Shown here in pieces: positions 4,801 to 42,845 of a DNA stretch of 64,000 nucleotides. This DNA is from Pleodorina starrii (Eukaryota; Chlorophyta; Chlorophyceae; Chlamydomonadales; Volvocaceae), in the NCBI GenBank assembly GCA_030267565.1, contig BRXU01000035.1, positions 396,001 to 460,000 on the forward strand, read 5' to 3'. Under the pieces are notes generated by a model, which saw only the letters and a program-made list of their open reading frames with translations, was not told the origin of the DNA and searched no databases. Numbering within the stretch: the first letter of the stretch is position 1; each line of letters opens with the position of its first letter. A program made the translations under genes and the position numbers.

Positions 4801-6609
4801 TGTGTGTGCGTGTATGTGTGTACGTGCGCGTGTGTACGTGTGCGTGTGTATGTGTGCGTGTGTACGTGTGCGTGTGTACGTGCGCGTGTGTACGTGTGCG
4901 TGTGTACGTGTGCGTGTGTACGTGCGCGTGTGTACGTGTGCGTGTGTACGTGTGCGTGTGTACGTGTGCGTGTGTACGTGTGCGTGTGTACGTGTGCGTG
5001 TGTACGTGTGCGTGTGTACGTGTGCGTGTGTACGTGTGCGTGTGTACGTGTGCGTGTGTACGTGTGCGTGTGTACGTGTGCGTGTGTGTGCGAGTGTGCG
5101 TGTGCGTGTGCGTGTGTGCGTGTGCGTGTGTACGTGTGCGTGTGTACGTGTGCGTGTGTACGTGCGCGTGTGTACGTGCGCGTGTGTGCGTGTGCGTGTG
5201 CACGTGTGCGTGTGAACGTGTGCGTGTGTACGTGTGCGTGTGTACGTGTGCGTGTGTACGTGTGCGTGTGTACGTGTGCGTGTGTACGTGTGCGTGTGTG
5301 TGCGAGTGTGCGTGTGCGTGTGCGTGTGTGCGTGCGCGTGTGTACGTGTGCGTGTGTACGTGTGCGTGTGTACGTGTGCGTGTGTGCGTGTGCGTGTGCA
5401 CGTGTGCGTGTAAGCAGTAAATAAAGGCTTATCCCGCGGATGCTCAGGAGCCAGGCTTACAGTGCGTGTGTACGTGTGCGTGTGTACGTGTGCGTGTGTA
5501 CGTGTGCGTGTGAACGTGTGCGTGTGTACGTGTGCGTGTGTACGTGTGCGTGTGTACGTGTGCGTGTGTACGTGTGCGTGTGTACGTGTGCGTGTGTGTG
5601 CGAGTGTGCGTGTGCGTGTAAATAAAGGCTTATCCCGCGGATGCTCAGGAGCCAGGCTTACAGTGCGTGTGTACGTGTGCGTGTGAACGTTTGCGTGTGT
5701 ACGTGTGCGTGTGTACGCGTGCGTGTGTACGTGTGCGTGTGTACGTGTGCGTGTGTACGTGTGCGTGTGTACGTATGCGTGTGTACGTGTGCGTGTGTAC
5801 GTGTGCGTGTGTACGTGTGCGTGTGTACGTGTGCGTGTGTACGTGCGCGTGTGTACGTGCGCGTGTGTACGTGTGCGTGTGTACGTGCGCGTGTGTACGT
5901 GCGCGTGTGTACGTGTGCGTGTGTACGTGTGCGTGTGTACGTGTGCGTGTGTACGTGTGCGTGTGTACGTGCGCGTGTGTACGTGCGCGTGTGTGCGTGT
6001 GCGTGTGTACGTGTGCGTGTGTACGTGTGCATGTGTACGTGTGCGTGTGTACGTGTGCGTGTGTACGTGTGCGTGTGTACGTGTGCGTGTGTACGTGTGC
6101 GTGTGTACGTGTGCGTGTGTACGTGTGCGTGTGTGCGTGTACGTGTTGTGCGTGTGTGCGTGTATGTGTGTACGTGCGCGTGTGTACGTGTGCGTGTGTA
6201 TGTGTGCGTGTGTACGTGTGCGTGTGTACGTGTGCGTGTGTACGTGCGCGTGTGTACGTGTGCGTGTGTACGTGTGCGTGTGTACGTGCGCGTGTGTACG
6301 TGTGCGTGTGTACGTGTGCGTGTGTACGTGTGCGTGTGTACGTGTGCGTGTGTACGTGTGCGTGTGTACGTGTGCGTGTGTACGTGTGCGTGTGTACGTG
6401 TGCGTGTGTACGTGTGCGTGTGTGTGCGAGTGTGCGTGTGCGTGTGCGTGTGTGCGTGCGCGTGTGTACGTGTGCGTGTGTACGTGTGCGTGTGTACGTG
6501 TGCGTGTGTACGAGTGCGTGTGTGCGTGTGCGTGTGCACGTGTGCGTGTAAGCAGTAAATAAAGGCTTATCCCGCGGATGCTCAGGAGCCAGGCTTAGAG
6601 TGCGTGTGT

Positions 6610-7204
6610 CCATGCTTGGTCGAATTGGTAATGGGTAGATGTGGGTTCGAATCCCACCGCTGGCCCCTGGCACTAGCCAGGGTAAAATAACGGTGAGTCC
6701 GGCCCGCTAAACTCCGGATCGTGCAGGGGCGCTCGAGAAAATGTCCCAGATCAATCAGTCCGCCCGTCAGGTCTGATTCACCCTGGTGATCGCGCCGAAC
6801 GGAGAAGAAATTACTCCCTAGGCCCGGTCCCCTTAACATACGCGAGAGTCTGTCTCCGCGTAAAATTAATTAAGTCTGCGCAGCTCAATTGGTAGAGCAC
6901 TCGCTTGTCAATTCGATGGTCATGGGTTCGATCCCATGCTTGGTCGAATTGGTAATGGGTAGATGTGGGTTCGAATCCCACCGCTGGCCCCTGGCAATAG
7001 CCAGGGTAAAATAACGGTGAGTCCGGCCCGCTAAACTCCGGATCGTGCAGGGGCGCTCGAGAAAATGTCCCAGATCAATCAGTCCGCCCGTCAGGTCTGA
7101 TTCACCCTGGTGATCGCGCCGAACGGAGAAGAAATTACTCCCTAGGCCCGGTCCCCTTAACACACGCGAGAGTCTGTCTCCGCGTAAAATTAATTAATTA
7201 ATAC
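6610..7204 (+). mobile_element. Dimeric tRNA-Asp-type SINE in the minisatellite
   Basis: Two head-to-tail copies of one SINE. The first (6,610-6,873) lacks the tRNA head and starts at ccatgcttggtcgaa. The second (6,874-7,204) is complete: gcgcagctcaattggtagag (A box), an anticodon-loop-like ttgtcaa reading GTC (Asp), and gggttcgatccc (B box). Each has the same body (aataacggtgagtccgg...) and ends in a taattaat tail. The acceptor and anticodon stems do not pair properly, so this is not a working tRNA gene. The repeat agtgcgtgtgt flanks the pair (6,599-6,609 and 7,205-7,215). tRNA-Asp-related SINEs are established in Chlamydomonas. Confidence 0.8.
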
Positions 7205-9925
7205 AGTGCGTGTGTACGTGTGCGTGTGTACGTGTGCGTGTGTACGTGTGCGTGTGTACGTGTGCGTTTGAACGTGTGCGTGTGTACGTGTGCGTGTGTG
7301 CGTGTGTACGTGTGCGTGTGTACGTGTGCGTGTGTGTGCGAGTGTGCGTGTGCGTGTGTGCGTGTGCGTGTGTACGTGTGCGTGTGTACGTGCGCGTGTG
7401 TACGTGCGCGTGTGTGCGTGTGCGTGTGCACGTGTGCGTGTGAACGTGTGCGTGTGTACGTGTGCGTGTGTACGTGTGCGTGTGTACGTGTGCGTGTGTA
7501 CGTGTGCGTGTGTACGTGTGCGTGTGTGTGCGAGTGTGCGTGTGCGTGTGCGTGTGTGCGTGCGCGTGTGTACGTGTGCGTGTGTACGTGTGCGTGTGTA
7601 CGTGTGCGTGTGTACGTGTGCGTGTGTGCGTGTGCGTGTGCACGTGTGCGTGTAAGCAGTAAATAAAGGCTTATCCCGCGGATGCTCAGGAGCCAGGCTT
7701 ACAGTGCGTGTGTACGTGTGCGTGTGTACGTGTGCGTGTGTACGTGTGCGTGTGAACGTGTGCGTGTGTACGTGTGCGTGTGTACGTGTGCGTGTGTACG
7801 TGTGCGTGTGTACGTGTGCGTGTGTACGTGTGCGTGTGTACGTGTGCGTGTGTGTGCTAGTGTGCGTGTGCGTGTAAATAAAGGCTTATCCCGCGGATGC
7901 TCAGGAGCCAGGCTTACAGTGCGTGTGTACGTGTGCGTGTGAACGTTTGCGTGTGTACGTGTGCGTGTGTACGTGTGCGTGTGTACGTGTGCGTGTGTAC
8001 GTATGCGTGTGTACGTGTGCGTGTGTACGTGTGCGTGTGTACGTGTGCGTGTGTACGTGTGCGTGTGTACGTGCGCGTGTGTACGTGCGCGTGTGTACGT
8101 GTGCGTGTGTACGTGCGCGTGTGTACGTGCGCGTGTGTACGTGTGCGTGTGTACGTGTGCGTGTGTACGTGTGCGTGTGTACGTGTGCGTGTGTACGTGC
8201 GCGTGTGTACGTGCGCGTGTGTGCGTGTGCGTGTGTACGTGTGCGTGTGTACGTGTGCATGTGTACGTGTGCGTGTGTACGTGTGCGTGTGTACGTGTGC
8301 GTGTGTACGTGTGCGTGTGTACGTGTGCGTGTGTACGTGTGCGTGTGTACGTGTGCGTGTGTACGTGTGCGTGTGTGCGTGTACGTGTTGTGCGTGTGTG
8401 CGTGTATGTGTGTACGTGCGCGTGTGTACGTGTGCGTGTGTATGTGTGCGTGTGTACGTGTGCGTGTGTGCGTGTGCGTGTGTACGTGTGCGTGTGTGCG
8501 TGTGCGTGTGTACGTGTGCGTGTGTACGTGTGCGTGTGTACGTGTGCGTGTGTACGTGTGCGTGTGTACGTGTGCGTGTGTACGTGTGCGTGTGTACGTG
8601 TGCGTGTGTACGTGTGCATGTGTACGTGCGCGTGTATACGTGCGCGTGTGTGCGTGTGCGTGTGTACGTGTGCGTGTGTACGTGTACATGTGTACGTGTG
8701 CGTGTGTACGTGTGCGTGTGTACGTGTGCGTGTGTACGTGTGCGTGTGTACGTGTGCGTGTGTACGTGTGCGTGTGTGCGTGTACGTGTTGTGCGTGTGT
8801 GCGTGTACGTGTGTACGTGCGCGTGTGTACGTGTGCGTGTGTACGTGTGCGTGTGTACGTGTGCGTGTGTGCGTGTGCGTGTGTACGTGTGCGTGTGTGC
8901 GTGTGCGTGTGTACGTGTGCGTGTGTACGTGTGCGTGTGTACGTGTGCGTGTGTGCGTGTGCGTGTGTACGTGTGCGTGTGTACGTATGCGTGTGTACGT
9001 GTGCGTGTGTACGTGTGCGTGTGTACGTGTGCGTATGTACGTGTGCGTGTGTACGTGTGCGTGTGTACGTATGCGTGTGTACGTGCACGTGTGTACGTGC
9101 GCGTGTGTACTTGCGCGTGTGTACGTGTGCGTGTGTACGTGTGCGTGTGTGCGTGCGCGTGTGTGCGTGCGCGTGTGTGCCTGTGCGTGTGTGCGTGTGC
9201 GTGTGTACGTGTGCGTGTGTACGTGTGTACGTGTGCGTGTGTACGTGCGCGTGTGTGCCTGTGCGTGTGTGCGTGTGCGTGTGTGCGTGTGCGTGTGTAC
9301 GTGTGCGTGTGTACGTGTGCGTGTGTACGTGTGCGTGTGTACGTGTGCGTGTGTGCGTGTGCGTGTGTGCCTGTGCGTGTGTACGTGTGTGCGTGCGCGT
9401 GTGTGCGTGTGCGTGTGTACGTGTGCGTGTGTACGTGTGCGTGTGTACGTGTGCGTGTGTACGTGTGCGTGTGTACGTGTGCGTGTGTACGTGTGCGTGT
9501 GTACGTGTGCGTGTGTACGTGTGCGTGTGTACGTGTGCGTGTGTACGTGCGCGTGTGTACGTGCGCGTGTGTGCGTGTGTACGTGTGTACGTGTGTGTGT
9601 GTACGTGTGCATGTGTACGTGTGCGTGTGTACGTGTGCGTGTGTACGTGTGCGTGTGTGCGTGTGTATGTGTGCGTGTGCGTGTGTACGTGTGCGTGTGT
9701 ACGTGTGCGTGTGTGCGTGTACGTGTTGTGCGTGTGTGCGTGTACGTGTTGTGCGTGTGCGTGTGTACGTGTGTACGTGCGCGTGTGTACGTGTGCGTGT
9801 GTACGTGTGCGTGTGTGCGTGTGTATGTGTGCGTGTGTGCCTGTGCGTGTGTGCCTGTGCGTGTGTACGTGTGCATGTGTACGTATGCGTGTGTGCGTGT
9901 GTACGTGTGCGTGTGCGTGTGTACG

Positions 9926-10073
9926 GACTAGGCAGCCGGAATGCAGCGCCCCGAGCCGATTACATTATTCGTTTTACGATATGCACGGAGCTATGGCAGG
10001 TCCGGCTCATCTGACGCTGGTCCCTTTCCTGCTCGCGCATCGGGTGCACCCTTGCTTCTCTCTGACCGTGCAG
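9926..10073. other. Junction between minisatellite and DPF-motif gene
   Basis: Unique sequence between the end of the GT array and the first recognisable splice acceptor (ctctgaccgtgcag, ending 10,073). It probably belongs to an intron of the downstream gene. No start codon in a convincing context is seen in the frame of the next exon. Confidence 0.4.
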
Positions 10074-29200: not shown

Positions 29201-32200
29201 GCTTCCTGGCTGCCTGGGCGGTCCTGGGATTCCTGGCGTCGCTGCTGCTCAACATCATCGACTCGCTGTTCGTCTGCTTCGCAATGGACAGGGACATCGG
29301 ACAGGTGGGCGGCCGGGAACGGGGGAGGGCGGGCACCAGGCAGGGGCAGGGCGCGGCTGGGCGCGGCGTGGCGAGGCAGGGATCGAGGGTTTGGTGAGGG
29401 GATTGTGCAGTCGACAGTGCGATGAATGCAATGCATGTTGGGTAATTGGGGAACTGGGTCTGGTGCTGTGGAAGGATGAGCCATGTGGCCGCGCACAGCA
29501 GCGGTAGCGGCGCCGGCAGCGGCTTAGAGTGGCGGCTTTGTGACACGCTGTAGTGCAGTGCAGCAGCCCCCTCCAGGGTGACAGCGGCAGCACAGGCAGC
29601 CGCGTTCGTGGTGTTCCGAGATGCCTCACGCTCAACACACCCAGCAGCGCTGTTACGGCTCCAGCGCCCCTTTCCCGCCAACCTCACAAACGGTGTTGCG
29701 TTCCCTGTGTTCCCCAGTTTCGTCTGTTTGCCTGTTAGCTTGCCTAGTTTTGGACTAACCTCCCTCCCGTATACCTTTCTCCCCTTCGCGCGCCCCGCAG
29801 GTTTCCTCCCTAGATGTTCACACCGTCATGTCCAAGCTGCCCACCGTGGGGGCGGTGGTGCAGCAGCCCGACGGAGGACTGGTCTATGATGGTGCTGCTG
29901 TTTATGATGTGGAGGCCGCAGGTGGGCAAATGGGGAGGACACGTGGCCCCGGGGGCAGGGATGGGGGACGAGTACTGAGGGCGGGGTGGGTCGCTTACAG
30001 GGGCATGGCGCTTTGAATCAAGCACGCGTGCTGTTATCGGCAGGGGCCCTCTTGAAACCCTGCCTTGCTCCACATTCCCACGTGCCTGCACCTATTATAT
30101 CCCAGGCCGCTTTGTCGTGCACCGTTGGTGTCGGTACATTTCCGGGACAAATGCCCGGTGAGGGCGCGGAGAGACGCTAGGAAGGACCCTCGAGCGTATC
30201 TGGACGTATCTCCATCTTATGGGAGATATTACGGTCGTACTGCTCGTCCAAACGAGCTCCTACCTAGGCGCGAGCGCTTCCTGCTGGAAGCGCTTCGCTT
30301 GGTCATTACGATGCCGAAGGATATATGATATTGTAACACACAATCAGATCCCCAGCAGCGACTCTCGCTGTGGCGTTAGCCCAAGCCGCCACAATGGTGT
30401 CTCACATGCACTAGCGTGGCGCCGGCCGGGCCTGATCAACCTGGCTGGCTGCCTTATCGCTTGTGCATTATAGTAGTCAGCTCAGCAGCACTGTTGCTCG
30501 CGCGCACGTAGGCGCCGAGCTCGGACCTCACGCTAGGAAGAAGGAGCGCGGCCTCGCCCCAGCGGTCAGGCCTCGGGGCCAGTACTGGATGCAGTGAGCC
30601 CGGCTGCAGTCCAGCTGCTGTCGCGCACGCCCCGCGCGAGCCCACACCAAGCGAAGCCAAGCCATTGCGGACGTCCGCGAGCGGCTTTCGGGCTTCGGCA
30701 CCTAGCTGAGGTCTGCAGACCACGGTTAGGTGTTAATTTCCAACGGCACGCACGCCGTTTGGAGGGTAGCCGCGAGCGCTGCCACATCGCTGCCACGGAG
30801 CAGCTCAGGACCTAGGCCAGGTCCTCGCGCCACGAGGCGCCCAACACGCTGGAGGCTTTAGAGGACGCAATGTCAGCCTTCCAGCTCGCCGACGACTTTG
30901 ACGTGGGCGACGAGTATGACGCCCCGCGCGAGACGGGGCTCCTACCTCGCGTGCCTGCGTCGCCAGCCGACCGGCGACATCTTAGCGCGCTTAACAGGGT
31001 CGGGCCACAAGACGCCCGGGCCACACAGGCCCGCCTGGCGGGCGGCCTCAGCCCTCGCGAGTCGCCGGCCTCTCTAGTGACGGCCAACCCGAGCTCGTCA
31101 CTCAGCCTCCGCCACCTGCCTGAACCAACCAACGGCGGCACCCCCATTCGTCAGCAGTCGCCTCCTTCTGGCGCCGGCTCCCGCCTCTTTCTCCACAGCC
31201 TCCGGAGCATCCACGGCGCCCAACCACCTCGCCCACGTTCTCCCCCGTCACCCCTGCCCTTCCCGGGGCCTCTGGAGGGCGGCTGGCCGCTCATGGCGGC
31301 CGCTGCCGCTCTTAACCCCTATGGTGGCGGCTTTGAGGCTCTGACGGCCTTGGAGGTGCCCGCCGCCGCCGCCGAGGCGGCAGGCGGGCGCCCCCGGGCA
31401 GTGGGAGCTGCGGAGCCGGAGATAGCAGCGGAGACGGGGGAGCGCGACGCTGCAACCATGCGAGCCGCGGCGGCGGTGGCAGCGGCGATGGACGCCGCGG
31501 CCACCGACGCGGCGGCGCGCGCGGCTGCGGAACGGACCGCGGCGGATACGGCCACCGCACGCGTGCCGGGCGTCACCGCCTTGGCGGACGGGCTTGCTAT
31601 GGGCGCCGCGGCGGCGCTGGGCGCTCCAGCAGCGCCGGGCGCCGCGGCGGTACCGGCCGCCCACGCTGGCGTCCCCGGTTGTGATCCGGACCGGCTGCCC
31701 GCCCGCCGCCACGCCCTCGCTGGAGGGGCCCGTCGCGTGCTGGTGCCGGACCACACGCTCGAGGACACGCCGACCACCGCGGTGCCGCCCTACACGCCCC
31801 TGTCCGTCTACCACACGGCGGATGAAGATGGTCGCACAGGGTGGAGGTTTGAGGGCTCGAGCCCCTTGGGGACCGAGCCCGGGCTGCGGGGGAACGGCGG
31901 TGTAGGACGGGGGAACCTCCTGCAAGGGGACAGCCCGGGGTTTGTTTTTGACGCCCCGCGCGTGCAGTTGCCTGCGGGGGGCCCGGCGGAGGGCATAGTT
32001 AGGACTGTGCTGGGTTACCGAGAGGTGGCGCAGGGGGGCGCGCGCCTGCATGCGAGCGTGCAGGAGGATCAGGATCAGGAGGGGGCAGATCGGGATTATG
32101 TAGAGAGGCTCATGGCCCGACTGCACCCTGGTGGCGCGATTGGCACCAGGCCGGCGACGCGCGGAACGGGTCCTCCGGTGGGCCCGCCTGCGCGGGATGC

Positions 32201-35200
32201 CGATGAGCTGCAGGCCGTGCTGCACGCCCTGCGGTCCATTGGGTACATTCCCCACGCAACCCAGCGCCCCCGCGACGGCGCGGGAGGGGGGCAAGAGCGC
32301 CGGGAGTCGCACGGCGACAACACTGCCACCGCCCGTGATAGGGCAGGCTCCAACGGGGTTGGGGGCCGGCCGTGGTGGCAAGATTTACAAATGGAGGCCG
32401 CCAGCTTCGGACCCGGCCCTGAGACGCCCCCCGACCTGCTCTGGACTGTTGGGCAGGTGGACACCATCCTCTCTTACCACCAGCAGCGGGGCGCAAGGGG
32501 GGGCCGTGTCGCGCAGCTGTATGCCCTGGCGAGCCTGCGCACTCTGCCCGACACGCCCACAGCCAATCACCTAGTCGGGCTCCCGCTGCCCACACAGGCG
32601 GATCCGGCTATCTGGACAATTTCCCTAATGTTGTCCTACGTCCCCCATGCCTCCTCCCAGCAGGGTTGCACGGAGGCCGAGCTCTACTGGGTGGAGCTCC
32701 GTCATTACCTGAACAGGACCTACCCGCCGGTACCCCGCCGCGCCACGCTGCCCGCGGGTGCGGCGGGGCTGGGGCCCCCACTTGCGGCACCGCCACCGCA
32801 AGCGGCCAATGCCACCTCGCCACCAGGGGCCCCCTCAACCGGCGGTGCGCCGCCGACGCCGCCCACGCCGCCGCCTGGCCCCAATCCCCCACCACCTCCC
32901 TCGCCTTTGCCGTCCCCCTCTGGCGCCTCGCCGTCGGTGACACCAGCCGTGACGACGACGCCGTCGGACACGTCGGCCGGCGTGCAACGCCGGCCGGGCG
33001 AGATTGTCGCTCTCCCCCAGGACGACTGGGAGCCCGCCAAACCCGTCCAGGGCCAGGGCTACGAGTTCGACGGGAAGCCCCAAAACTATACAGCCTTCAA
33101 GAGCAAGGTGGAGAACTACCTGGTGACGGCGCTGGGGCCACGGTCTAGTGCCCGCTACAAGCACGCTGATTACAAGCACGTCGTCACCGTGCTGGTCAGC
33201 ATGTTCCTAAAAGCGGACAGCCCGCCCCGGCGGACGTACACGCAGCAGCGAATCGGCGAGCTGCTCGATGATCATTTCGCCGAGTACACGGCCGCTGGCG
33301 GGGACGCGGCGCTCTACCGCGGTCAGGCAGCGCCGCGGGAGGGCGCGCGCAACTTCGTCGACTTCTGGCTCGCCAACGTGCTACAGATCACGGCTGGCAA
33401 CGGCGCCGTTATCGAGCAGGAGTACGACGCGTACGTGTACCCGGTCGGAGTGGACCCAAACACCGCCGTCACCGAGTTCACCAGCCGGTTTTCGCTGCTG
33501 CCCGCTGAGACGTACGCCGAGCCAAGGAAGGCGCAATGGTTCCTGCGTGCCGCCATCCGCGCTCTCGCCGGCTACAAGCAGCTGAAGGAAGCGGTCCTGC
33601 GCCTCCGGACCGAAGACAAGTTCCACCTGCTCACGCTCCGGCAGGCGGCCAATATCATCGGCGCCATGGTGGGGGGATCGGGGCTTTCCGGCCTGCAGCA
33701 GCGGCCTCCACACACGCTAAAGGAAGAGGACGACGGCGTCGGCGGCGGCAGCGGCGGGGGCACAGGTGGCGGCGGCAGTGCCACAGTCGGCGGTGGCTCT
33801 GGCAACAACAGTAGCGGCGGCGGCGGCGGCGGCAATGGGACAGGCGGCGGAGGCGGCCGCAAGAACCACACGGTCAATGCGTTGGCGCCGTCCGGCAACA
33901 GATCCAAGGGCAACGCCCCCCGCGCCGAGCACGACCAGGTCACAATGGCGGCGGCCGCGGCGGCAGACCGGATCTGCCCCGAAGGACGCTGGGTAGCCCA
34001 CCAGGACAAGACCTGCCGCCTGCACCCCTTCCTGGGCAGCAACCACAAGCAGCGGCACTGCAGGGGGTCCAAGCAGCGCATAGCGACGGATCCGGCGGGG
34101 CTGCTGGCGGAGATGCAGGCGAAGGTTCACGAGGCGCGGCAAGGGCGGGGGCTGCCGGCGGATTTGACGGACAAGTCTGTGCCAGCGTTGGCTTTGGCGC
34201 CTAGCGCTTCGCAACGCCAGGTCGACCGCATGGACGCGCAGCTTCAGCAGCTCCATCAGCTGCTGGCGGCGCAGCGCATCCCGTCGTCAGCTGTATCGGA
34301 GGCAGCGGCCCCGCTGCCGGTACAGATGCTCGCATGGCGGCAGCAAGCAGCGCAGGCGCCACCGCCCCCACCACAGTCGGTGGCCCCCTCGGCAGTATCC
34401 TACCACCGGCACCCGGCAACGCCCCAGCTGCAGCACCCGCCTGCGTCGTACGCGGCCCCCTCCACGCCACCGCCACCGCCACCCTGGCCGGCAGCGGTGG
34501 CGATGCCCGCCGCCATGCCGGGCCCATACGATGCAGCGCCCCACTCATCCATAGCGCTGCCCTTCGGAACCTACGCCGTCTGCCCGGTCGGCGCGACGGT
34601 GGCAGAGCGCATGCCGCCGGGCTTCCAGCAGCATAACAGCCATGCACCTGCCAAGGCTCCGGAGAAAGGCCCGGCAGCCGCGCCCGGCTCTTACGACCAC
34701 ACCGCCGTCGCCGTGTTGCCTGGCCCGCTGACCCAGGCCATACAGCTACTGGACAATGCACGAAATTGCCTCGTCCAAATGCAGTCGTCGGCCCTGGCCG
34801 CGGTAAAGCCAGCGCCGCCGCCACTGGCGGCAGCGCAGGCAGCACCGCCGGCCGCCGCGCTGGCGTCGCCTGCAGCCGCCCTGCCGCCGTCGCCATCGGC
34901 GTCGGCGCTGGTGGCGCTCGCGACGCCGGCAGCCGCACTGGCGATGACGGACGCCTCGCTCCACCCAGCCAATATGGCCCTGTCGGACCACGACGACCTG
35001 GCGCGGCCGCTGCCGTACCTGCAGCAAACCTGGCCGGCAGAGAGCCTGCTGGTGGGCGGCGAGCTGGTGCGCGACGTGCTGGTCGACACCGGCAGCGCCA
35101 TCATCATAGTCGCGCAGCGCTTGGCGGATCGGCTGCAGCTGCGGTGCCAGCCACGGCCCGAGTACACCGTCACCACCGCGGCAGGCCGCTCAACGCTGCT

Positions 35201-38200
35201 TGGCGAGGTGTGCGGGGGCCTGACGCTCACGTTCGGTGCCGGTGCTGGTCAGGGCCACACCATCTGGCTGCCGGCCATGCTGGCAGCGGACTCCGGCGCC
35301 GAGGCCTATGAGTTGTTGCTGGGCATGCGCGCACTGCAGCCGCTTCAGTCCCGACTCGACCTGCGTGAGGGCCGGGAGAAACTTGAGATGTGGCCGCCGG
35401 GACACGGGTACCTTGGCATTCCCATCATCATCCGCTGGCCGTCCCTGGGCGGCGGTGTCGCACCACTAGCCGCGAGCACAGCGGCGCCCACACTTCCACA
35501 GCCGCCCCCTCTCGCGGGGGGCGGCGGCTCCTTATGAGCGCCGCCGAAGCGGCGGGGATGCGGGACCCCGCCGCCTGGATGCCGGGGCTGTTGGACAGCG
35601 ACAGCGACAGCGAGTATGACGACGGGCTGCTACAGCCGGCAGACTTCACGCCGGAGGGGAAGCGCATGCTCCCACCCGAGGCGAAATACGAGGTCACGCC
35701 AGGCAAGTGGCTGCTGTGCCAGCGCAGCGAGATGACTCCGGAGCTGAAGCGGCGGTTCCTGGACCTGGTGGGTCGCAACGACGACATCTTCGCGCGCAGC
35801 ATGCGGGATCTGGGCGAGTACCGCGGCGACGTAGGGCCTGCCCGCATCGAGCTGGCGCATCAGCGGCCGATCTATCAGCGCCCGCGCTCCCACAGCGCGG
35901 AGGAGTACGCCGCCATGGACGCAGCCTGCCAGGAGCTGCTGGAAGCCGGGATCATCGAGGAGAGCCGCTCAAGCTCCTTCGCCATGAACTCCACCCTGCC
36001 GCCCAAGCGAGCGGCGGACGGCACCTGGACGCAGCGGCGGTTTTGCCAGGACGCGCGCGAGCTCAACGCCGCCACGCTGCCTGACCTGCACCTATCGCCG
36101 CTGCCAGAGCAGCTTTTCCAGCAAGTGGGCGATGCTACGTGGCTGACCAAGATGGACTGCCGGGCCGCCTTCCTGCAGATCCCGCTGGCGCCCGAGCACC
36201 GGGAGCGCACTAGCTTCTGGTGGCGCCGGCGGCTGATGCAGTACAAGCGCCTGGTGTACGGCCTGCGGAATGCCACCGCCCACTTTCAGCGCGTCATGGA
36301 CCACGCCATCCGCAAGCACGGCCTGGAGGAGTTCGTCGTCTGCTATGTGGACGACTTGCTTATCTACAGCCAAACGGCGGAGCAGCACCTTGAGCACCTG
36401 GCTCGGGTGTTCGCCATGCTGCGGGAGATTGGCATCCGGCTCCACCCGGAGAAGACGCTGGTGGGCGGTGACGCGGTGGAGTTCCTGGGCTTCATGGTGT
36501 CGGCGCAGGGCCTGTCGCCGACACGCGCCAAGGTGGAGGCGCTGCTGGCGCTGGAGCCGCCGAACTCGTCGGCGGCTGTACGGCGGCTGCTGGGCATGTT
36601 CTCGTATTACCGGGGGCTTGTTCCGCACTTCGCTGACATCACCGCGCCACTCAACCCGTTGACTAGCACCAAGTACGTGTGGCAGCCCAGCTCGTGGGGG
36701 CCGGAGCAACAGGCAGCGCTGGACGAACTCAAGCGGATCTACACCCAGATGGACGGGCCGGTGTTGCGGCGGGTCCAGCCGGACCGGCCGCTTATCCTGC
36801 ATACGGACTTCTCGGGCGTGGGCATCAGCGGCATCCTCGGGCAGTTGGACGACAGTGGGCAGGAGTACCTGTGCGCGGCAGTCTCAAGATCGCTCAACGT
36901 GCACGAACGTAGGTACGACAGCTACAAGGGCGAGCTGCTGGCGGTGGTGTGGGCGTGCAAGATGTTCTACCCTTACCTAGCGGCCCGCCACTTCACCGTC
37001 GTCACGGACCACGCGCCGCTGCTGTGGCTCATGTCGCAGCAAGACGGCCTGCCGGCGCAGTATGCCCGGTGGGCCTTGCAGCTGCAGGCGTTTGCCTTCG
37101 ACGTGGCGCACCGGCCCGGCAAGCTGCACCAAAACGCCGACGCCCTCAGCCGCCACCCGCTCACGTCTGCACACGACGGCACAGGCGCACGCGTCGACGA
37201 GGAGGGCGACCCGCTGCGCCCGCCACCCGTGCTCGTTCAGTACCCGGGCGCGAGCTGGCCGCTGTACGCATACTCGCGTGCGCCGGAAGGCGCGCAGGCG
37301 CCGGCAGCGGTCGTCACGCACTTGGCAGCCGTAGCCAGGTGCTCAGCGGCCCTAGCCCGGCGTTTCTCAGTGCAGCATGACCTGGAGGACCCGGCCACCA
37401 GCCTGGCCGCCGCCCCCGAGGCAGTCGGGCCGCTCGCTGGTCTGACACACCTCGCTGGCCCAGTGCCCGCTGCACGCGCCGCATATCTTTGCGTGCACGC
37501 GGTGTGTGCTGTGGTCAGTGTGGGGCTGCCGGTCATGGCGGCATCGGAGCTGGAGATCGACGACGAGCTGGAGGCCTTGGCGGCGGGACAGCCCGCCGCC
37601 GGGGATACGGAGGCCTTGGCGGCGGGGCAACCTGCCGCTGGGGAGCTGGAGGCCTTGGCGGCGGGGCAACCTGCCGCCGGGGTGTCGGCGCCTGGCAGCC
37701 CCTCTAGGCCGCCGGTCGCCGGCGATACTACATTGCACATTGCCGTTGCGCTCGTTCGCGACGAAGCCGCTGCACTACGGCGGCTGCGCGCGGTTTCGGC
37801 GCTTGCGCTGCGCCTCCGCGCTGGAACAGGGGAGATTCTCGGAGTCAACACAGCACTTGTTCAACACGTCCTCTTTCCGGCAGCAGTAGGGGGCACTGGG
37901 GTTACGATTCTGGAGCTGCCGGGCGGCCTCGCTTCTGGCCTGCTCGCGTGCCTGGGTTTGGGTTTTCAGATACAGCGCTACGTGCACCTCTCATGCGACG
38001 CCCGCGAGCGGCGTGCGGTGGCACAACTTGTGCCTGTTTGGGGGATGCATTACGATGGGCAGCTTTCAGCAGGGGCTTGGGATTCGGGGCTAGTACCGGA
38101 GTTTAGCACACCCACGGAGCTTCTTCACTGGGGAGCGTCAGCAGCAGCCGTCGAGGCAATGGGCTTGGGGGACACGTCTGTGTGTTTAGTAGTAGGCAGC

Positions 38201-41200
38201 TGGGGGGGATCCACGTCCTGGGACACGCAGCACGTAGTTAGTTTCTTGGGGGGATTGCAGCAATATCGCAGAGAGCGGCGTCTACCGCCGCCGGCCTTCC
38301 TTCTTGAGGGCCCTCACATCAGCATCGACGCGGCGCCGGAGGCGGGTTGGCCCCTGGGCTTGCCATCGCCTCTCGACGCCGCCGTCACTGGCGCGGCAGT
38401 TCACCGCTTGAGCTGCCTTTACACTAACCTCGCCAACGCGGTGCACTTGCAGCACTGCCTCGCTCAGCTGCGGCCACCAGAGGGCCGCAGCCTGGCCGCG
38501 CTGCTGCCGCCTGGGCATAGCCCGGCGGCGGCGTGCACGGTCATGGCCCCGCCTTACGCGGCGCTCGACATTCCGGGCCGGCCATGGGTGGCGTTACCGC
38601 CGCCCTCGGTCTCGGACGCGCCGCTACGGGCGGGGCCCAACCGCACTCCCAGCCGGGTCACTGCGGCCGCCTACTCGGCGGCGGCTGGCTTTTGGCTGCG
38701 GACGTCGCGGCACACAAAGCTGGAGCTGGAGCTGGAGCTGCTGGAGACGTCATCCCCGCCGCCGGTCTTCCAGTTCGCTCTCTCCTTCTGCATGGCGCTG
38801 CATCGCGCGTTCGTCACGCCGCACGACATGCAGTATCCTGCGGCACGGCACCTCGTGACCTCACCGCAGGGGGGGGGAAGCGAGCTGGCGCCGCCGATTT
38901 CTACTGGGGCCGCGGCAGCGGTCTCGGGGTCGGTGGCAGGATTGGCGGGAGGGGCAGCGCCGCCGCTGCCGGCCTTAGCGGTTTCCGCTGTGGCGGTCCG
39001 CTGGTCGGCGGCGGCGGCCTGGGATGAGGAGCTGACGCCGCTGGCCTGCGCCTTGCTGACACAGCGGGCGCCTGGGCTGGCGGTGGTCATGGCCACGGCT
39101 GGGCTTGCCTCGGCTGTGGATGCGCAGGAGAGCGCATTGGCGGAAGGGACCGACCCTGACGTGTGGCTTGACGCGTCAACGTTGGCGCACCTCCAGGGCG
39201 CGCCGGCGGGGGTCGGGACCGACGGGCGGCCGGAACGGCGCGTGCTCCGACGGGCCGCGCTGTACCGGTGGACGGGGGATCAATTGCTTAGGGCCTGCAG
39301 CGACGGCTCGACGCGGGTCTGCCCACCGCCCGACGCTCGGGAGGCCATCGTGCGGCAAGTGCACGCGGTGGCCCACCTGGGCATACGTCGGACCTTGGCG
39401 CTGGTGCAGCTGGGTCACTGGTGGCACGGGATGCGAAAAACCGTCCAGCGGGTCGTGCGCAGCTGCAAGCTGTGCGACATGACCAACAGCGGCGGCGTCG
39501 CGCGCCCGATCCAGCTGCAGCCGTTGGCCATACGGGGCATGTTCTACCGCTGGGGCGTTGACCTGGCGGGACCTCTGCCCCCGACTGCGCCGTTCGGCTA
39601 CACTTATGTCATGGTATGCATTGAACATTTCACCAAGCATGCGGAGTTTGTGGCCCTGCGGAGCAAGCAGCCTGACGAGACGTCCCGCGGCCTGCTGGAG
39701 CTGGTGGCCCGGTTCTCGGCCCCAGCCGAAGTGGTGACCGACCGCGGCGGTGAGTTCCAAGGGGCTTTCGCGGCGCTGCTTCGGCAATGCTTCGTCGACC
39801 ATCGGCTGACCTCGGCGGGCCATCCCCAAGCAGACGGGGCCGCCGAGCGGCTGGTTCAGGTCGTCAAGGCGGCGCTGCGTAAGCACTGCAAGGACACGGG
39901 AAGGACGGACGATTGGGATCTGCAACTGCCTTGGCTGGCGCTCGCCTACCGCTGCTCGCCTCAGGCGTCGACCCGGTACTCGCCATACGAACTCATGTTC
40001 GGCGTGCCGCCGGTCGTACCGCCTGCTGTGCGGGAGCGCATGGCGGAGCCGCTGGGGCTGGCCGGCCCGGTGGGAGCTTACGCGGCGGCGCTCCAAGAGC
40101 GCGCCGCACTTCTGCAGCGGCATGCTCCCATCGCTGCGGCAAATCTGCTCATCGCCCAGCACCGAGACACGCGCCGGTACGCGCACGTGCGCTCAGGCAA
40201 GTACCGGCCGCCGGCTATGGAGTTCGCCCCAGGCGACTACGTGTATGTGCGCCGGTCAGCGGTGCACAACACTCTGCAGATGCCGGTGTACGACGAGGTG
40301 CTGCGCGTAGAACGGGTCGGGGCCATGGGAGTAGCAGTGTTGTTAGGGCGTGATGGGGGACGAATTAGACGTAGGATAGAGCAGCTGGTGCCGTGCCACC
40401 TGCCCGATCTTGATCCGATCGTCGATGTACGGCTGCAACGGCCAACCACCGACCTCGCCTGCGAGGTCTGTGAGTCGCCCGAAGATGAGGCGCGCATGCT
40501 GCTGTGCGATGCGTGCGGGACAGGCTGGCACCTGCAGTGCCTGTCCCCGCCGCTGAGCGCGGTGCCGCCGGGACAGTGGGTCTGCCCTGAGTGTGTCAAG
40601 CTCAGGCGCGAGGCCCCGGTGGGGCCAGAGATGGCCTTGCCCAAGGCGGCGCCGGTCCTGTTCCCCAACGCCGCCACGCGGCGGCGGGACGAGCAAGCGG
40701 CAGCACTCGACGGTGTCCGGGTCAAGCGTGTCGTGTACACGGGGCAAGGAAGGCAGCGGGCGAGGTCAGTGGTTTGGGGTACGGTGCGGTATCGCGGAGC
40801 ATTGGCTAGGCCCCACTACTTTCTCGTCGAGTGGGACGAGGGGTCAGCTGAGCCGATGGGCATCACCGCGGTCAACCGCCTGTTGGTGACTGGATGATTG
40901 GGGGGCTTAGTGCAGTGGTTTACTGGGTTGCCTCACGGCCGGGTACTCAGCGGAGGTTGGAAGACCGCTTGTGCGCGGCAACGGACCTTTGACCTGGTGG
41001 TGATCCGCGAAGGGTCGCTTGGGCCTGAACAGGCCGTCAGACTGCGCGCGCGCGCGACTAGAGGAACTGAACCTTCCGGGGCTGCGCCGCGTGGCGCGTT
41101 GTGTGACTGTTTCGCCCCGGCAGATCGCCGCCTTGCGGCTGGGGGGGGAGACAGGGCTCCGGGCTTAGACCCGGCGGGAAGGCGGCTAACCGCCTTGCCT

Positions 41201-42845
41201 AACGCAGGTTGCAGGGGTGTTCCTTCGGGGGGGCTCTCGCGTGAGTGTCCTCGACGTTGGGACGTAGACGCCCACGGTGGCGCAGTTTGGCCGCAATGGC
41301 CGCGCTTGGAAAAGGCGCACTCGAGTGTTTCTTCGGTGCTATTGCCTTGGGGAGAGTGAAGTATAGCGCGCACGTGCTCGGGCTGGGCGCCACTGGCGCA
41401 GGACGGCACGACGTTGTGCGAACGCAGACCTCGGATTCCAGAGCAGCAGACTCCGGGCAACCCGCGTAATCGGATTTGGATCTTGGCGACCTCCGCGAGA
41501 CGGGCGCGAAGCTCTTATTGCCGGACGATAGCGCGCCTTGACTTGTGCATGCTAGGCCGCGAGCGCCTCGCTAGATAGACGAATAGCCGTTTAGCGGCGC
41601 CGTACACCCTCGTTTATGTGGTGGGCGGAAACCCGTAGTAGTTGCATTGCGACCGGCGTCAGGCTTCCGTGCCGGCCGGATAGTCGCAGGACAGTTGCAG
41701 GTCTAGCCTCGCTGTCCTTCAGGATCGGTAGCTGTTTACTCGCGCCGCGCGTCATAGCCAGCACCTCCCTCGCTTAGCTTCGCTGCTACGTTCGGGGGGG
41801 GGAGTCCGCGTACCCAGTGTCGCGGGCACATGCCTTCCAGCGTTGGGGCATGACAGCTGTCGTGCACCGTTGGTGTCGGTACATTTCCGGGACAAATGCC
41901 CGGTGAGGGCGCGGAGAGACGCTAGGAAGGACCCTCGAGCGTATCTGGACGTATCTCCATCTTATGGGAGATATTACGGTCGTACTGCTCGTCCGCGTAC
42001 CCAGTGTCGCGGGCACATGCCTTCCAGCGTTGGGGCATGACAGCTTCTTCCAGATTGCTTCTCCCAATTCCTAAACCCGGCCTCTTCCCCTCCCCCTCTT
42101 CCCCAAACCCCTAGATTGAGCTGGTGACCCGGCTTGTGGGCCTGGCTGGCCGTGGCCTGTCCGCCAACCCCGGCCTTGTGCCCCTGGCCCTAGGCCTGCA
42201 GCTGGGTCTGGTGGGACCATGCCACCTGACGGGACCAACAGCGATTTTCGCCCGGCGCCGGCATGGCAGCAGCTGGCTGCAGGGCAGGCGCCGTCGCAGC
42301 CGCCATGGGGTCACCCGGCTGCGGCTATGCAGGCGGCGGTAGTGAGGGCGCAGGAAGGCGCAGAGGGCAAGGCGGTGGAATGGGAGCTTGACGAGGACTG
42401 GGGCGAGGAGGGGGTTCTTGGGGAGAGCCCGGAGGGCTATGGAGGGTATGTGCGTGGGGTCTCAGGTCCGAGTCGCCCGCAGGTCGGTCAAGCCGGCGAC
42501 GACGCCAGCACCAACCCTGGCGCTGACACCGAAGCTGACGCCGGTGCCGACGATGTCGACGTTTGTGGCCTCAGTGAAGGAGGCCTGAGCGTTGCCGCTC
42601 AGCAGCCGCTGGGCTCTCCCGCATGGCTAGACGCCCCGCCGGACTCCACGAAGCGGCCATTGCCATCGCAGCTACCTCTGCCGCCACAACCGCGGGCGCA
42701 GCCTGACTCGAGCGTTCAGGGCTTACCGGAGCGGCTCGGCGGCACCCGAGCATATGCGCGCACGTCGTGGGTGGCAGACTTCATTGACGAGGCGGACTTG
42801 AGGCTTTCAAGCCTCGGCCCGGATGACGGGTGCGAGGACGCGTGA
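26244..42845 (+). CDS. Choline-transporter-like (CTL/SLC44) gene, split by SINE and retroelement
   Basis: Multi-pass membrane protein gene. Exons I can support: 26,244-26,368 (first TM, VAYSLMVLATALGGGVFAFL), 26,892 to about 27,050, 27,834-28,118 (start also duplicated at 27,488), 28,477-28,682, 29,041-29,304, 29,801-29,921 and 42,202 onward. CTL hallmarks are FTVAGATAQWYF (from 27,918), IIDSLFVCFAMDRDIGQ (from 29,255) and the following SSLDVHTVMSKL. Exon 29,921 ends in phase 1 and 42,202 starts in the matching phase, so the gene resumes after the 11.9 kb retroelement. The tail is hydrophilic and ends at TGA 42,843-42,845, or at 42,588 if a small intron is spliced at 42,446-42,482. Defects: TAG at 27,885-27,887 where the family usually has Trp, a 1-nt shift in exon 29,041-29,304 near 29,105, and an upstream ATG (26,174) whose frame carries a DEPLL motif but runs into a stop. 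It may be a pseudogene or contain base errors. Family members move choline or related solutes; substrate unproven here. Confidence 0.65.
26543..26584. repeat. 20-bp tandem duplication in a CTL intron
   Basis: ggttcagtgcgggctcac occurs twice, about 20 bp apart, within the first CTL intron. No function suggested. Confidence 0.8.
27503..27832 (-). mobile_element. Full-length tRNA-Asp-type SINE at a CTL splice acceptor
   Basis: Same family as the pair at 6,610-7,204, here on the minus strand: head gtctgcgtagctcaattgg (from 27,832 downward), B box gggttcgatccc, the same body, and the taattaatta tail at 27,503-27,520. It is flanked by a 16-bp target duplication, gacggagccctgggtt, at 27,487-27,502 and 27,833-27,848. 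The left copy begins at the G of the original acceptor (cccgcag), so the element landed at the very start of a CTL exon. Confidence 0.9.
30113..30249 (+). repeat. Left terminal repeat L1 (137 bp)
   Basis: Identical over 137 bp to 41,858-41,994. It begins with TG. It is not followed by the B segment that follows L at the right end, so it is not a conventional full LTR copy. Confidence 0.9.
30242..30294 (+). promoter_or_regulatory. Two adjacent hairpins at the L1/leader junction
   Basis: gctcgt (30,242-30,247) pairs with acgagc (30,252-30,257). agcgcttcc (30,273-30,281) pairs perfectly with ggaagcgct (30,286-30,294). No TGG-starting tRNA primer-binding site follows the repeat, so self-priming is conceivable, but this is speculation. 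Confidence 0.4.
30295..30869 (+). other. Untranslated leader of the retroelement
   Basis: About 575 nt between the hairpins and the first ATG of ORF1, with no open frame of interest. I could not identify a primer-binding site or a packaging signal. Confidence 0.4.
30870..35537 (+). CDS. Retroelement ORF1: gag-like protein with aspartic protease
   Basis: 1,555 residues. Residues 1-720 are Ala/Pro/Gly-rich and mostly disordered, including an Ala-rich stretch near residues 190-250. Residues ~728-941 (from GYEFDGKPQNYTAFKSKVEN) look like a helical capsid-type region. Then come a Gly-rich linker, a Cys/His cluster (near 33,970-34,070) that is not a classical CCHC knuckle, and a second Pro/Ala-rich linker. 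Near the C-terminus, VLVDTGSA (Asp at residue 1,406, codon 35,085) is the active site of a retropepsin-like protease that would cleave the polyprotein. The TGA at 35,535-35,537 overlaps the ATG of ORF2. The start at 30,870 is the first ATG of the frame. Confidence 0.8.
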   Translation: MSAFQLADDFDVGDEYDAPRETGLLPRVPASPADRRHLSALNRVGPQDARATQARLAGGLSPRESPASLVTANPSSSLSLRHLPEPTNGGTPIRQQSPPSGAGSRLFLHSLRSIHGAQPPRPRSPPSPLPFPGPLEGGWPLMAAAAALNPYGGGFEALTALEVPAAAAEAAGGRPRAVGAAEPEIAAETGERDAATMRAAAAVAAAMDAAATDAAARAAAERTAADTATARVPGVTALADGLAMGAAAALGAPAAPGAAAVPAAHAGVPGCDPDRLPARRHALAGGARRVLVPDHTLEDTPTTAVPPYTPLSVYHTADEDGRTGWRFEGSSPLGTEPGLRGNGGVGRGNLLQGDSPGFVFDAPRVQLPAGGPAEGIVRTVLGYREVAQGGARLHASVQEDQDQEGADRDYVERLMARLHPGGAIGTRPATRGTGPPVGPPARDADELQAVLHALRSIGYIPHATQRPRDGAGGGQERRESHGDNTATARDRAGSNGVGGRPWWQDLQMEAASFGPGPETPPDLLWTVGQVDTILSYHQQRGARGGRVAQLYALASLRTLPDTPTANHLVGLPLPTQADPAIWTISLMLSYVPHASSQQGCTEAELYWVELRHYLNRTYPPVPRRATLPAGAAGLGPPLAAPPPQAANATSPPGAPSTGGAPPTPPTPPPGPNPPPPPSPLPSPSGASPSVTPAVTTTPSDTSAGVQRRPGEIVALPQDDWEPAKPVQGQGYEFDGKPQNYTAFKSKVENYLVTALGPRSSARYKHADYKHVVTVLVSMFLKADSPPRRTYTQQRIGELLDDHFAEYTAAGGDAALYRGQAAPREGARNFVDFWLANVLQITAGNGAVIEQEYDAYVYPVGVDPNTAVTEFTSRFSLLPAETYAEPRKAQWFLRAAIRALAGYKQLKEAVLRLRTEDKFHLLTLRQAANIIGAMVGGSGLSGLQQRPPHTLKEEDDGVGGGSGGGTGGGGSATVGGGSGNNSSGGGGGGNGTGGGGGRKNHTVNALAPSGNRSKGNAPRAEHDQVTMAAAAAADRICPEGRWVAHQDKTCRLHPFLGSNHKQRHCRGSKQRIATDPAGLLAEMQAKVHEARQGRGLPADLTDKSVPALALAPSASQRQVDRMDAQLQQLHQLLAAQRIPSSAVSEAAAPLPVQMLAWRQQAAQAPPPPPQSVAPSAVSYHRHPATPQLQHPPASYAAPSTPPPPPPWPAAVAMPAAMPGPYDAAPHSSIALPFGTYAVCPVGATVAERMPPGFQQHNSHAPAKAPEKGPAAAPGSYDHTAVAVLPGPLTQAIQLLDNARNCLVQMQSSALAAVKPAPPPLAAAQAAPPAAALASPAAALPPSPSASALVALATPAAALAMTDASLHPANMALSDHDDLARPLPYLQQTWPAESLLVGGELVRDVLVDTGSAIIIVAQRLADRLQLRCQPRPEYTVTTAAGRSTLLGEVCGGLTLTFGAGAGQGHTIWLPAMLAADSGAEAYELLLGMRALQPLQSRLDLREGREKLEMWPPGHGYLGIPIIIRWPSLGGGVAPLAASTAAPTLPQPPPLAGGGGSL
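35516..35537 (+). promoter_or_regulatory. Putative -1 frameshift site and ATGA stop-start overlap
   Basis: In the ORF1 frame the sequence reads gcG GGG GGC, matching the X XXY YYZ slippery pattern (35,516-35,522). A -1 slip there enters the ORF2 frame, which is open from upstream (35,390). Fifteen nucleotides later ORF1 ends and an ORF2 ATG begins in the tetranucleotide ATGA (35,534-35,537), so termination-reinitiation is an alternative. The sequence alone does not decide. Confidence 0.5.
35534..40897 (+). CDS. Retroelement ORF2: RT, RNase H, DNMT3-like insert, integrase, PHD finger
   Basis: 1,787 residues from ATG 35,534. RT of Ty3/gypsy type, residues ~110-350, with YVDD at 271-274. RNase H with D425, E467 and D492 (HTDFSG, KGELLAV, TDHAP) and HRPGKLHQNADALSR. 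Residues ~550-1,240 are an unusual insert: three copies of an EALAAGQPAAG unit (~680-717), then a region resembling a cytosine-5 methyltransferase (ILELPGGLASGLL from 792; LVVGSWGGSTSW from 885; FLLEGPHIS from 922). Integrase: H1277, H1281, C1311, C1314, then D1343, D1403, E1438, with GHPQADGAAERL. PHD finger 1643-1687 (CEVC, CDAC, WH, C, CPEC). The last ~50 residues (VVWGTVRYRG...YFLVEWDEG) resemble a chromo or tudor fold. All catalytic residues of RT, RNase H and integrase are present; those of the methyltransferase are not. Confidence 0.85.
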   Translation: MSAAEAAGMRDPAAWMPGLLDSDSDSEYDDGLLQPADFTPEGKRMLPPEAKYEVTPGKWLLCQRSEMTPELKRRFLDLVGRNDDIFARSMRDLGEYRGDVGPARIELAHQRPIYQRPRSHSAEEYAAMDAACQELLEAGIIEESRSSSFAMNSTLPPKRAADGTWTQRRFCQDARELNAATLPDLHLSPLPEQLFQQVGDATWLTKMDCRAAFLQIPLAPEHRERTSFWWRRRLMQYKRLVYGLRNATAHFQRVMDHAIRKHGLEEFVVCYVDDLLIYSQTAEQHLEHLARVFAMLREIGIRLHPEKTLVGGDAVEFLGFMVSAQGLSPTRAKVEALLALEPPNSSAAVRRLLGMFSYYRGLVPHFADITAPLNPLTSTKYVWQPSSWGPEQQAALDELKRIYTQMDGPVLRRVQPDRPLILHTDFSGVGISGILGQLDDSGQEYLCAAVSRSLNVHERRYDSYKGELLAVVWACKMFYPYLAARHFTVVTDHAPLLWLMSQQDGLPAQYARWALQLQAFAFDVAHRPGKLHQNADALSRHPLTSAHDGTGARVDEEGDPLRPPPVLVQYPGASWPLYAYSRAPEGAQAPAAVVTHLAAVARCSAALARRFSVQHDLEDPATSLAAAPEAVGPLAGLTHLAGPVPAARAAYLCVHAVCAVVSVGLPVMAASELEIDDELEALAAGQPAAGDTEALAAGQPAAGELEALAAGQPAAGVSAPGSPSRPPVAGDTTLHIAVALVRDEAAALRRLRAVSALALRLRAGTGEILGVNTALVQHVLFPAAVGGTGVTILELPGGLASGLLACLGLGFQIQRYVHLSCDARERRAVAQLVPVWGMHYDGQLSAGAWDSGLVPEFSTPTELLHWGASAAAVEAMGLGDTSVCLVVGSWGGSTSWDTQHVVSFLGGLQQYRRERRLPPPAFLLEGPHISIDAAPEAGWPLGLPSPLDAAVTGAAVHRLSCLYTNLANAVHLQHCLAQLRPPEGRSLAALLPPGHSPAAACTVMAPPYAALDIPGRPWVALPPPSVSDAPLRAGPNRTPSRVTAAAYSAAAGFWLRTSRHTKLELELELLETSSPPPVFQFALSFCMALHRAFVTPHDMQYPAARHLVTSPQGGGSELAPPISTGAAAAVSGSVAGLAGGAAPPLPALAVSAVAVRWSAAAAWDEELTPLACALLTQRAPGLAVVMATAGLASAVDAQESALAEGTDPDVWLDASTLAHLQGAPAGVGTDGRPERRVLRRAALYRWTGDQLLRACSDGSTRVCPPPDAREAIVRQVHAVAHLGIRRTLALVQLGHWWHGMRKTVQRVVRSCKLCDMTNSGGVARPIQLQPLAIRGMFYRWGVDLAGPLPPTAPFGYTYVMVCIEHFTKHAEFVALRSKQPDETSRGLLELVARFSAPAEVVTDRGGEFQGAFAALLRQCFVDHRLTSAGHPQADGAAERLVQVVKAALRKHCKDTGRTDDWDLQLPWLALAYRCSPQASTRYSPYELMFGVPPVVPPAVRERMAEPLGLAGPVGAYAAALQERAALLQRHAPIAAANLLIAQHRDTRRYAHVRSGKYRPPAMEFAPGDYVYVRRSAVHNTLQMPVYDEVLRVERVGAMGVAVLLGRDGGRIRRRIEQLVPCHLPDLDPIVDVRLQRPTTDLACEVCESPEDEARMLLCDACGTGWHLQCLSPPLSAVPPGQWVCPECVKLRREAPVGPEMALPKAAPVLFPNAATRRRDEQAAALDGVRVKRVVYTGQGRQRARSVVWGTVRYRGALARPHYFLVEWDEGSAEPMGITAVNRLLVTG
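37895..38680 (+). other. Degenerate DNMT3-like methyltransferase domain within ORF2
   Basis: Within ORF2, residues ~788-1,050. The order of recognisable blocks follows DNMT3-type enzymes. A SAM-binding motif I (ILELPGGLASGLLACLGLGF, then QRYVHLSCD) comes first. An LHWG block follows, then a motif-IV position reading LVVGSWGGSTSW where Pro-Cys is expected. Next is a motif-VI position, AFLLEGPHIS, where Glu-Asn-Val is expected. Then come AAVHRLSCLYTNLANA at the motif-VIII position and an LQHCL block. Glu of motif VI is kept; the catalytic Cys is lost. I infer a non-catalytic, DNMT3L-like role or a decaying domain. A profile search is needed; chance resemblance cannot be excluded. Confidence 0.55.
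40898..41803 (+). other. 3' non-coding part of the retroelement, ending in a G-rich purine run
   Basis: No supported gene. It ends in a run of nine G and an A (41,794-41,803), a good polypurine-tract candidate for plus-strand priming because the repeat block B-L-B begins immediately after it. Confidence 0.55.
41804..41857 (+). repeat. Repeat B1 of the split terminal repeats
   Basis: gtccgcgtacccagtgtcgc... identical to 41,991-42,044. The B1-L2 joint reads gacagctgtc, a 10-bp palindrome that equals the element's right end (GACA) and left end (TGTC) joined through two bases (GC). Confidence 0.85.
41858..41994 (+). repeat. Right repeat L2 (137 bp)
   Basis: Identical to L1 at 30,113-30,249. Confidence 0.9.
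41991..42042 (+). repeat. Repeat B2, right end of the retroelement
   Basis: Second copy of B. It ends ...GCATGACA, followed by the gctt target duplication. L and B share the four bases gtcc at their junction. Confidence 0.85.

Follow-up and report, generated by a model that had tools for sequence, protein, structure and literature searches.

A retroelement in the genome of the volvocine green alga Pleodorina starrii carries about 740 residues between RNase H and integrase of its Pol protein that have no Pfam match up to E 10, and the question raised by this locus is where that segment came from and why it is kept. The element occupies positions 30113-42042 of the window, the 64,000-nucleotide stretch of DNA that was analyzed; all coordinates given here are positions in this window, and C-numbers denote contigs of the genome, the window being part of C35. 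Apart from the target site duplications, the features described are on the forward strand. The pol gene, open reading frame 2 (ORF2; 35390-40897, 1835 amino acids), was defined from the reading frame and its Pfam matches. These are reverse transcriptase (RT; residues 220-369) and RNase H (436-568), together at 36047-37093, the integrase H2C2 zinc finger (1312-1367) and the rve match of its DDE core (1386-1479), together at 39323-39826, and a PHD finger (1691-1735) at 40460-40594. This is a gypsy-type pol, as a preliminary description of the locus had recognized. The same description had placed in the segment, at 37895-38680, a DNMT3-like methyltransferase domain that lacked the catalytic Cys. 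Modeling and alignment show that the RNase H-integrase stretch can be modeled as a complete DNMT3 fold without the catalytic Cys, one motif VIII Arg and key residues of the S-adenosylmethionine (SAM) pocket, and sequence comparison shows that the element lies within a Ty3/gypsy-type clade whose members carry this domain.

The domain between RNase H and integrase

All four motifs quoted in the preliminary description, ILELPGGLASGLL, LVVGSWGGSTSW, FLLEGPHIS and LQHCL, were found in ORF2 between RNase H and integrase, at positions 32-44, 125-136, 162-170 and 212-216 of the domain, respectively. The domain corresponds to ORF2 residues 809-1147 (37814-38830), with a structural match over about 37889-38806; the interval first given was correctly located but somewhat too narrow. 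The matched elements of the 136-Mb genome were grouped into five families, A to E, of which A includes the window element; in homologue searches the best 8000 candidates by shared words were scored in each search; L- and P-numbers designate individual copies and proteins. A profile of six sequences from the five P. starrii families matched 26 different sequences of PDB at E values of up to 10, and these were 16 DNMT3A, nine DNMT3B and one DNMT3C entries (best whole-sequence E 9e-5), which places the kinship with DNMT3 above that with other families. The alignment to DNMT3 consists of three collinear pieces that are individually weak (14.3, 2.5 and 4.2 bits). Profile and alignment together give motifs I, IV, VI, VIII and X in the non-rearranged order of DNMT3. 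A structure model computed from 12 rows, from which P0011 was left out, is predicted to be a compact and complete class I C5-methyltransferase fold closest to DNMT3, and its top-ranked structural match is DNMT3. The fold and motif order proposed earlier are thereby upheld.

Individual residues were scored on a 17-row domain alignment. The motif I counterpart, VTILELPGGLASGLLACL (37901-37954), has Pro in place of the Phe of the SAM pocket, and the acidic residue of motif II is replaced by Ser. In the motif IV counterpart, LVVGSWGGSTSW (38186-38221), Gly-Gly is found where the Pro-Cys nucleophile is expected, with Gly at the catalytic position (38207-38209), in agreement with the earlier claim that this Cys is missing. 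The motif VI counterpart, FLLEGPHIS (38297-38323), keeps the Glu of Glu-Asn and has Gly at the Asn position. Motif VIII, around VHRLSCLYTN (38393-38431), reads Arg-Leu-Ser instead of Arg-x-Arg, so that the first Arg is kept and the second is Ser. The motif X helix region was placed at 38759-38812 by alignment and by the model (helix 316-333). The motif correspondence suggested at the outset holds except for LQHCL, which is not the counterpart of DNMT3A LQECLEHGR; the profile alignment pairs the latter with SLAALLPPG. We are confident that the domain is DNMT3-derived and catalytically incompetent, and to judge from these residues it would not methylate.

Some results weigh against this assignment. 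The window domain alone has no match in Pfam or NCBIfam and no meaningful sequence match in PDB, the best being an aquaporin at E 0.19; thus, the DNMT3 kinship is not visible from the single sequence. A profile restricted to family A (5 rows) reached DNMT3A at just E 0.28, which is not significant, with DNMT3A accounting for 16 of 16 matches. The corresponding 5-row model is poor (pLDDT, the predicted local distance difference test score, 46.7), and Foldseek gave it a best E of 0.02 and no match at 0.001, yet the first four rows were DNMT3 entries. Family A's own evidence is therefore weak, and confidence in the fold depends on its relatives. Representatives of the five families gave a Pfam DNA_methylase match in none of five cases. 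The Pfam check advocated in the preliminary description fails for the lone domain; the multi-family profile, compared with PDB, does reach DNMT3.

Three other identities were considered and rejected. Chance Rossmann-like resemblance was ruled out because profiles containing no DNMT sequence matched only DNMT3 and the structural match ranked top. A viral methyltransferase source was ruled out since matches to the viral library were weaker and the top ones were mostly cytosine methylases (best E 7.8e-6). The order of the motifs excludes a rearranged enzyme of the DRM type.

Selection on the domain and its role in Pol

The element is recently mobile, as had been proposed: of 97 rows matching the domain in the genome, nine lie within open frames of 1836 amino acids, two further loci are 100% identical across the 433-amino acid domain query, and the window copy is flanked by a 4-bp target duplication. 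The selection test suggested in the preliminary description gave ratios of nonsynonymous to synonymous change (dN/dS) of 0.32 (L031), 0.32 (L028), 0.33 (L032) and 0.36 (L033) for the domain, by a crude pairwise Nei-Gojobori estimate in which the values are raised because the comparison copies are partly degraded. The domain dN/dS is thus shown to be well below 1. In the L033 comparison the integrase value was 0.42. A survey of RT sequences yielded 119 match rows, the best 117 of 344 first-look candidates being scored; several rows may come from one element, and one short row (C30:229570) was omitted (59+59+1). Among the matches listed, a domain match started at most 7 kb away from 58 of the 59 RT rows with at least 43% identity and from none of the 59 rows with 36% or less, the latter, distant group being composed of best matches only.

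Among functional readings, a retained binding or structural role of the domain within Pol is the best, and we regard it as fairly probable. Most likely the domain would keep hold of nucleic acid or of partner proteins within the complementary DNA (cDNA)/integration complex, between RNase H and the integrase-PHD part. Other observations tell against such a role. Domain dN/dS against near-identical copies was 0.46 (L007) and 0.18 (L008), from very few changes. In the L028 comparison the domain value of 0.32 stands beside 0.18 for RT-RNase H, 0.22 for the linker before the integrase and 0.14 for the integrase, so that part of the constraint on the domain may be general to Pol. Invariant columns in four A-clade rows make up 35 of 78 positions in the motif blocks and 71 of 241 elsewhere, an unconvincing excess that 23 of 318 circular shifts equal or surpass. 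With a net charge of -4, the domain does not look like an unspecific binder of DNA.

The best of the alternatives is that a once useful domain is now a spacer in Pol undergoing slow decay. Fast divergence is consistent with this (identity between family A, including the window element, and family C is 57% for the RT and about 26% for the domain), as is a domain dN/dS above those of RT and integrase in the L028 comparison. Set against it are the ratios of 0.32-0.36 in four comparisons, the nine uninterrupted frames, the retention of the domain in five families and beside nearly all close RT rows, and the compact and complete 12-row model; we consider a passive remnant improbable.

Slightly less plausible is a regulator or decoy, in which the dead domain would bind a host methyltransferase or the nucleosome and recruit, block or misdirect methylation of the element. 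A DNMT3 fold without methylation chemistry is seen in DNMT3L and in DNMT3B3, a catalytically inactive isoform; these are host regulators of active DNMT3. The window domain resembles DNMT3L in this respect, and a PHD finger is present in the same protein. This is the only such module in ORF2 and is located after the integrase; Pfam matches of ORF2 to E 10 include neither a PWWP nor an ADD domain. Unlike DNMT3L and DNMT3B3, the window domain forms part of the polyprotein of a retroelement, and no DNMT3 was found in the genome that harbors it. PF00145 matched one locus only, through two exon matches below the family cut-off with canonical PPCQ and ENV motifs, and this locus reads as DNMT1 type. 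Queries with two Cys-bearing domains found transposon families and no clear host DNMT3, in an exon-by-exon search that could miss one. The accessible part of a published review lists DNMT1/MET1 in Chlamydomonas reinhardtii and Volvox carteri; of the Archaeplastida algae that it covers, only the red alga Cyanidioschyzon and Klebsormidium are given DNMT3 or DRM, and a DNMT3 is named in a diatom (PMC9861306). By analogy a DNMT3L-like function may be conceived; for this host it seems unlikely.

Descent of the domain and its Cys-bearing relatives

The domain is common to the five P. starrii families, to proteins of Volvox africanus and Astrephomene, and to elements outside this group that retain the Cys. 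One P. starrii protein, P0006, is 99% identical to family B over the entire 471-amino acid query. Cys is found at the position of the Gly of the window domain in P0003, P0009-P0013 and family E; in family B a Cys aligns one residue ahead of the catalytic position, and this family was for that reason not counted as Cys-bearing. The survey for copies with Pro-Cys that had been proposed thus recovered relatives with Cys but none with Pro before it: the preceding residue is Glu in P0009, P0011, P0012 and P0013, Ser in P0010, Ala in P0003 and Arg in family E. Only P0009-P0013 keep the complete set of Cys, Glu-Asn, Arg-x-Arg and the motif I Phe. In motif IV of these five proteins W-E-C-Q (W-S-C-E in P0010) replaces Pro-Cys, and both Glu-Asn and Arg-x-Arg are unchanged, which is possibly a new form of C5-methyltransferase active site. 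With the Pfam DNA_methylase model (cut-off 22), P0012 (26.0 bits) and P0013 (29.9 bits) score above the cut-off and P0009 (14.5 bits) below it; P0011 has no match. In the window element, P0009 and P0011 the domain lies between RNase H and integrase, and other long relatives read likewise; P0012 and P0013 have it after the protease and upstream of RT, which implies that it moved or was captured twice. P0009 has in addition a second, C-terminal methyltransferase-like region at residues 2046-2084 (MethyltransfD12, E 0.003, 17.7 bits, cut-off 22; DPFAGSGT and SSPPF), and a sequence search of PDB with this C terminus found no methylase.

Trees were made for RT (14 rows, without family D and with P0003 and L028 partial) and for the domain (15 rows), both with midpoint roots. 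The well-supported groups agree: family A with A', Astrephomene P0005, P0003 and, as sister, family C; and family B with P0007 and P0008. The domain tree places families D and B next to L021 and P0006. Deeper branches are without resolution in either tree. Given this agreement and the presence of the domain near close RTs, the simplest interpretation is a domain that predates the split of these families. It is highly probable that its origin was not independent and that it is an old character of the clade. The window domain would then descend from a DNMT that an ancestor of the clade had captured.

The preliminary description had instead proposed that a green-algal element captured a DNMT3-like domain independently, which for this locus would mean capture of a host DNMT3 by a volvocine gypsy element. 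More than one capture is conceivable from the position upstream of RT in P0012 and P0013. The proposal is opposed by the fact that volvocine families share the domain with relatives outside them, the groups in the two trees matching, by the failure to find a host DNMT3 donor in the exon-by-exon search, and by the W-E-C and ENT motifs common to P0009, P0011, P0012 and P0013, which favor one source; it is not upheld, and we give it little credence. A similar element has been described in Klebsormidium nitens. The accessible text on KnitGypsy-Dnmt3 reports a gypsy domain set with conservation of the key functional amino acids, a Ka/Ks below 0.2, and repeats "the same as that of a DIRS retrotransposon" (de Mendoza et al. 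2018, PMC5890265). The window element is like it in combining a gypsy Pol, a non-rearranged DNMT3 domain and DIRS-like repeats, a likeness in described features; it differs in that the window domain has lost the Cys, one Arg and SAM-pocket residues.

Retrotransposons with a captured C5-methyltransferase also include SymbioDIRS-Dnmt3, which is of DIRS type, and SymbioLINE-Dnmt of dinoflagellates (PMC5890265); unlike these DIRS and LINE elements, the window element is a gypsy element. As far as the accessible text goes, the SymbioDIRS domain methylates CG and the SymbioLINE domain tested gave no DNA methylation in yeast, active captured DNMTs in retrotransposons are reported from two lineages, and the benefit of the domain is left open (PMC5890265). 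The main text of that paper makes no mention of Chlamydomonas, Volvox, chlorophyte or green alga, and in the open-access literature we found no report of such elements for volvocine algae or for other chlorophytes, subscription papers being mostly outside the search. Orchid Ty3/gypsy elements with a domain for demethylation of N6-methyladenosine, called functional in the title (PMC9289625), are likewise gypsy elements that gained a nucleic-acid-modification domain, for another enzyme.

That the window domain has remained an enzyme, whether a methyltransferase or another user of SAM or a nucleotide, with altered chemistry, nucleophile or substrate, is very doubtful, for although Cys-bearing relatives keep Glu-Asn and Arg-x-Arg beside W-E-C-Q or W-S-C-E and family A retains the motif VI Glu and one motif VIII Arg, the window domain has Gly for Cys, Pro for the motif I Phe and Ser for both the motif II acid and the second Arg, and the conservation of its motif blocks is within reach of circular shifts.

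The reading that we prefer is a non-catalytic module retained in Pol. Less eroded members of the clade, with Cys, Glu-Asn and Arg-x-Arg in a W-E-C-Q setting, may have kept methylation activity; the volvocine families would have lost the chemistry and retained the fold because it serves within Pol. As a whole, a more detailed picture is less likely than not: a widespread gypsy clade with split repeats would carry a DNMT3-derived domain older than the split of the volvocine families, its catalytic members would have Trp-Glu-Cys-Gln, which lacks the Pro, as a new form of motif IV, and in P. starrii, where the sole DNMT3 relics would be in transposons, a conserved pseudoenzyme would act in cDNA handling or, with the PHD finger, in chromatin targeting of integration. 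A series running from Cys-bearing to Cys-less domains, apparently under selection, allows what the fold does to be told apart from what methylation does, and what the dead version still does is a need of the element beyond methyl transfer. The W-E-C-Q relatives also call into question the strictness of the Pro-Cys motif.

Split repeats, target sites and other features

The two ends of the element are not a plain pair of long terminal repeats (LTRs). The identity of the repeats noted in the preliminary description is real over 137 nt (30113-30249 and 41858-41994), but they belong to split direct repeats in the order A1...B1-A2-B2, which rules out a plain LTR element. A1 (30113-30646, 534 nt) starts with TG; its length was taken from the C15 copy, in which A2 is long. 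Repeat comparison places B1 at 41804-41855, where it ends with CA and is followed by GC. A2 (41858-41994, 137 nt) precedes B2 (41991-42042), which ends with CA at the right end of the element; 55 nt starting at 41804 are repeated at 41991. In the C15 and C42 copies the right A arm reaches about window base 30646 (534 nt), after which most of the B arm comes again. The right A arm of the window copy is 397 nt shorter than that of C15, and GTCC is common to the end of A2 and the start of B2. One family B element has A arms of 697 nt and B arms of 52 nt. The B1-A2 junction is CA-GC-TG in families A, B and D; in family D an exact search for at least 10 nt found no B arm. Repeats are present in families C and E as well; the split layout was read in two of the five families (A and B).

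Flank comparison shows GCTT directly on either side of the window element, as a 4-bp target site duplication (30109-30112 and 42043-42046). Such 4-bp duplications and TG...CA ends were present in all five elements with both ends read (window, C15, C42, C17 and one of family B). The element thus has the repeat layout of DIRS/PAT elements, yet its insertion follows the pattern of a DDE integrase: an rve integrase and target duplications are found rather than a tyrosine recombinase and undisturbed targets.

ORF1 (30870-35537) is in a gag-like position and has a C-terminal retropepsin-like match (residues 1402-1443, E 5.8e-5) that is under the Pfam curated cut-off. With this match as protease, the element has the Ty3/gypsy order of protease, RT-RNase H and then DDE integrase. 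A possible -1 slippery heptamer in the phase of ORF1, G_GGG_GGC (35516-35522), lies just 5' of the ORF1 stop, within the 151-nt overlap of ORF1 and ORF2. The tail after the PHD finger (40712-40894; GTVRYRGALARPHYFLVEW...) is similar in Astrephomene P0005 and has no Pfam match; our impression from the sequence is of a small SH3- or Tudor-type fold.

Elsewhere in the genome, C5:2034196-2097171 has numerous matches, short and in part broken, to the N-terminal portion of the family E piece, every few kb, in the manner of a tandem array. Positions 2001-10000 of the window have a strong strand asymmetry, with a GC skew of 0.32 to 0.46 and an AT skew of -0.38 to -0.66.

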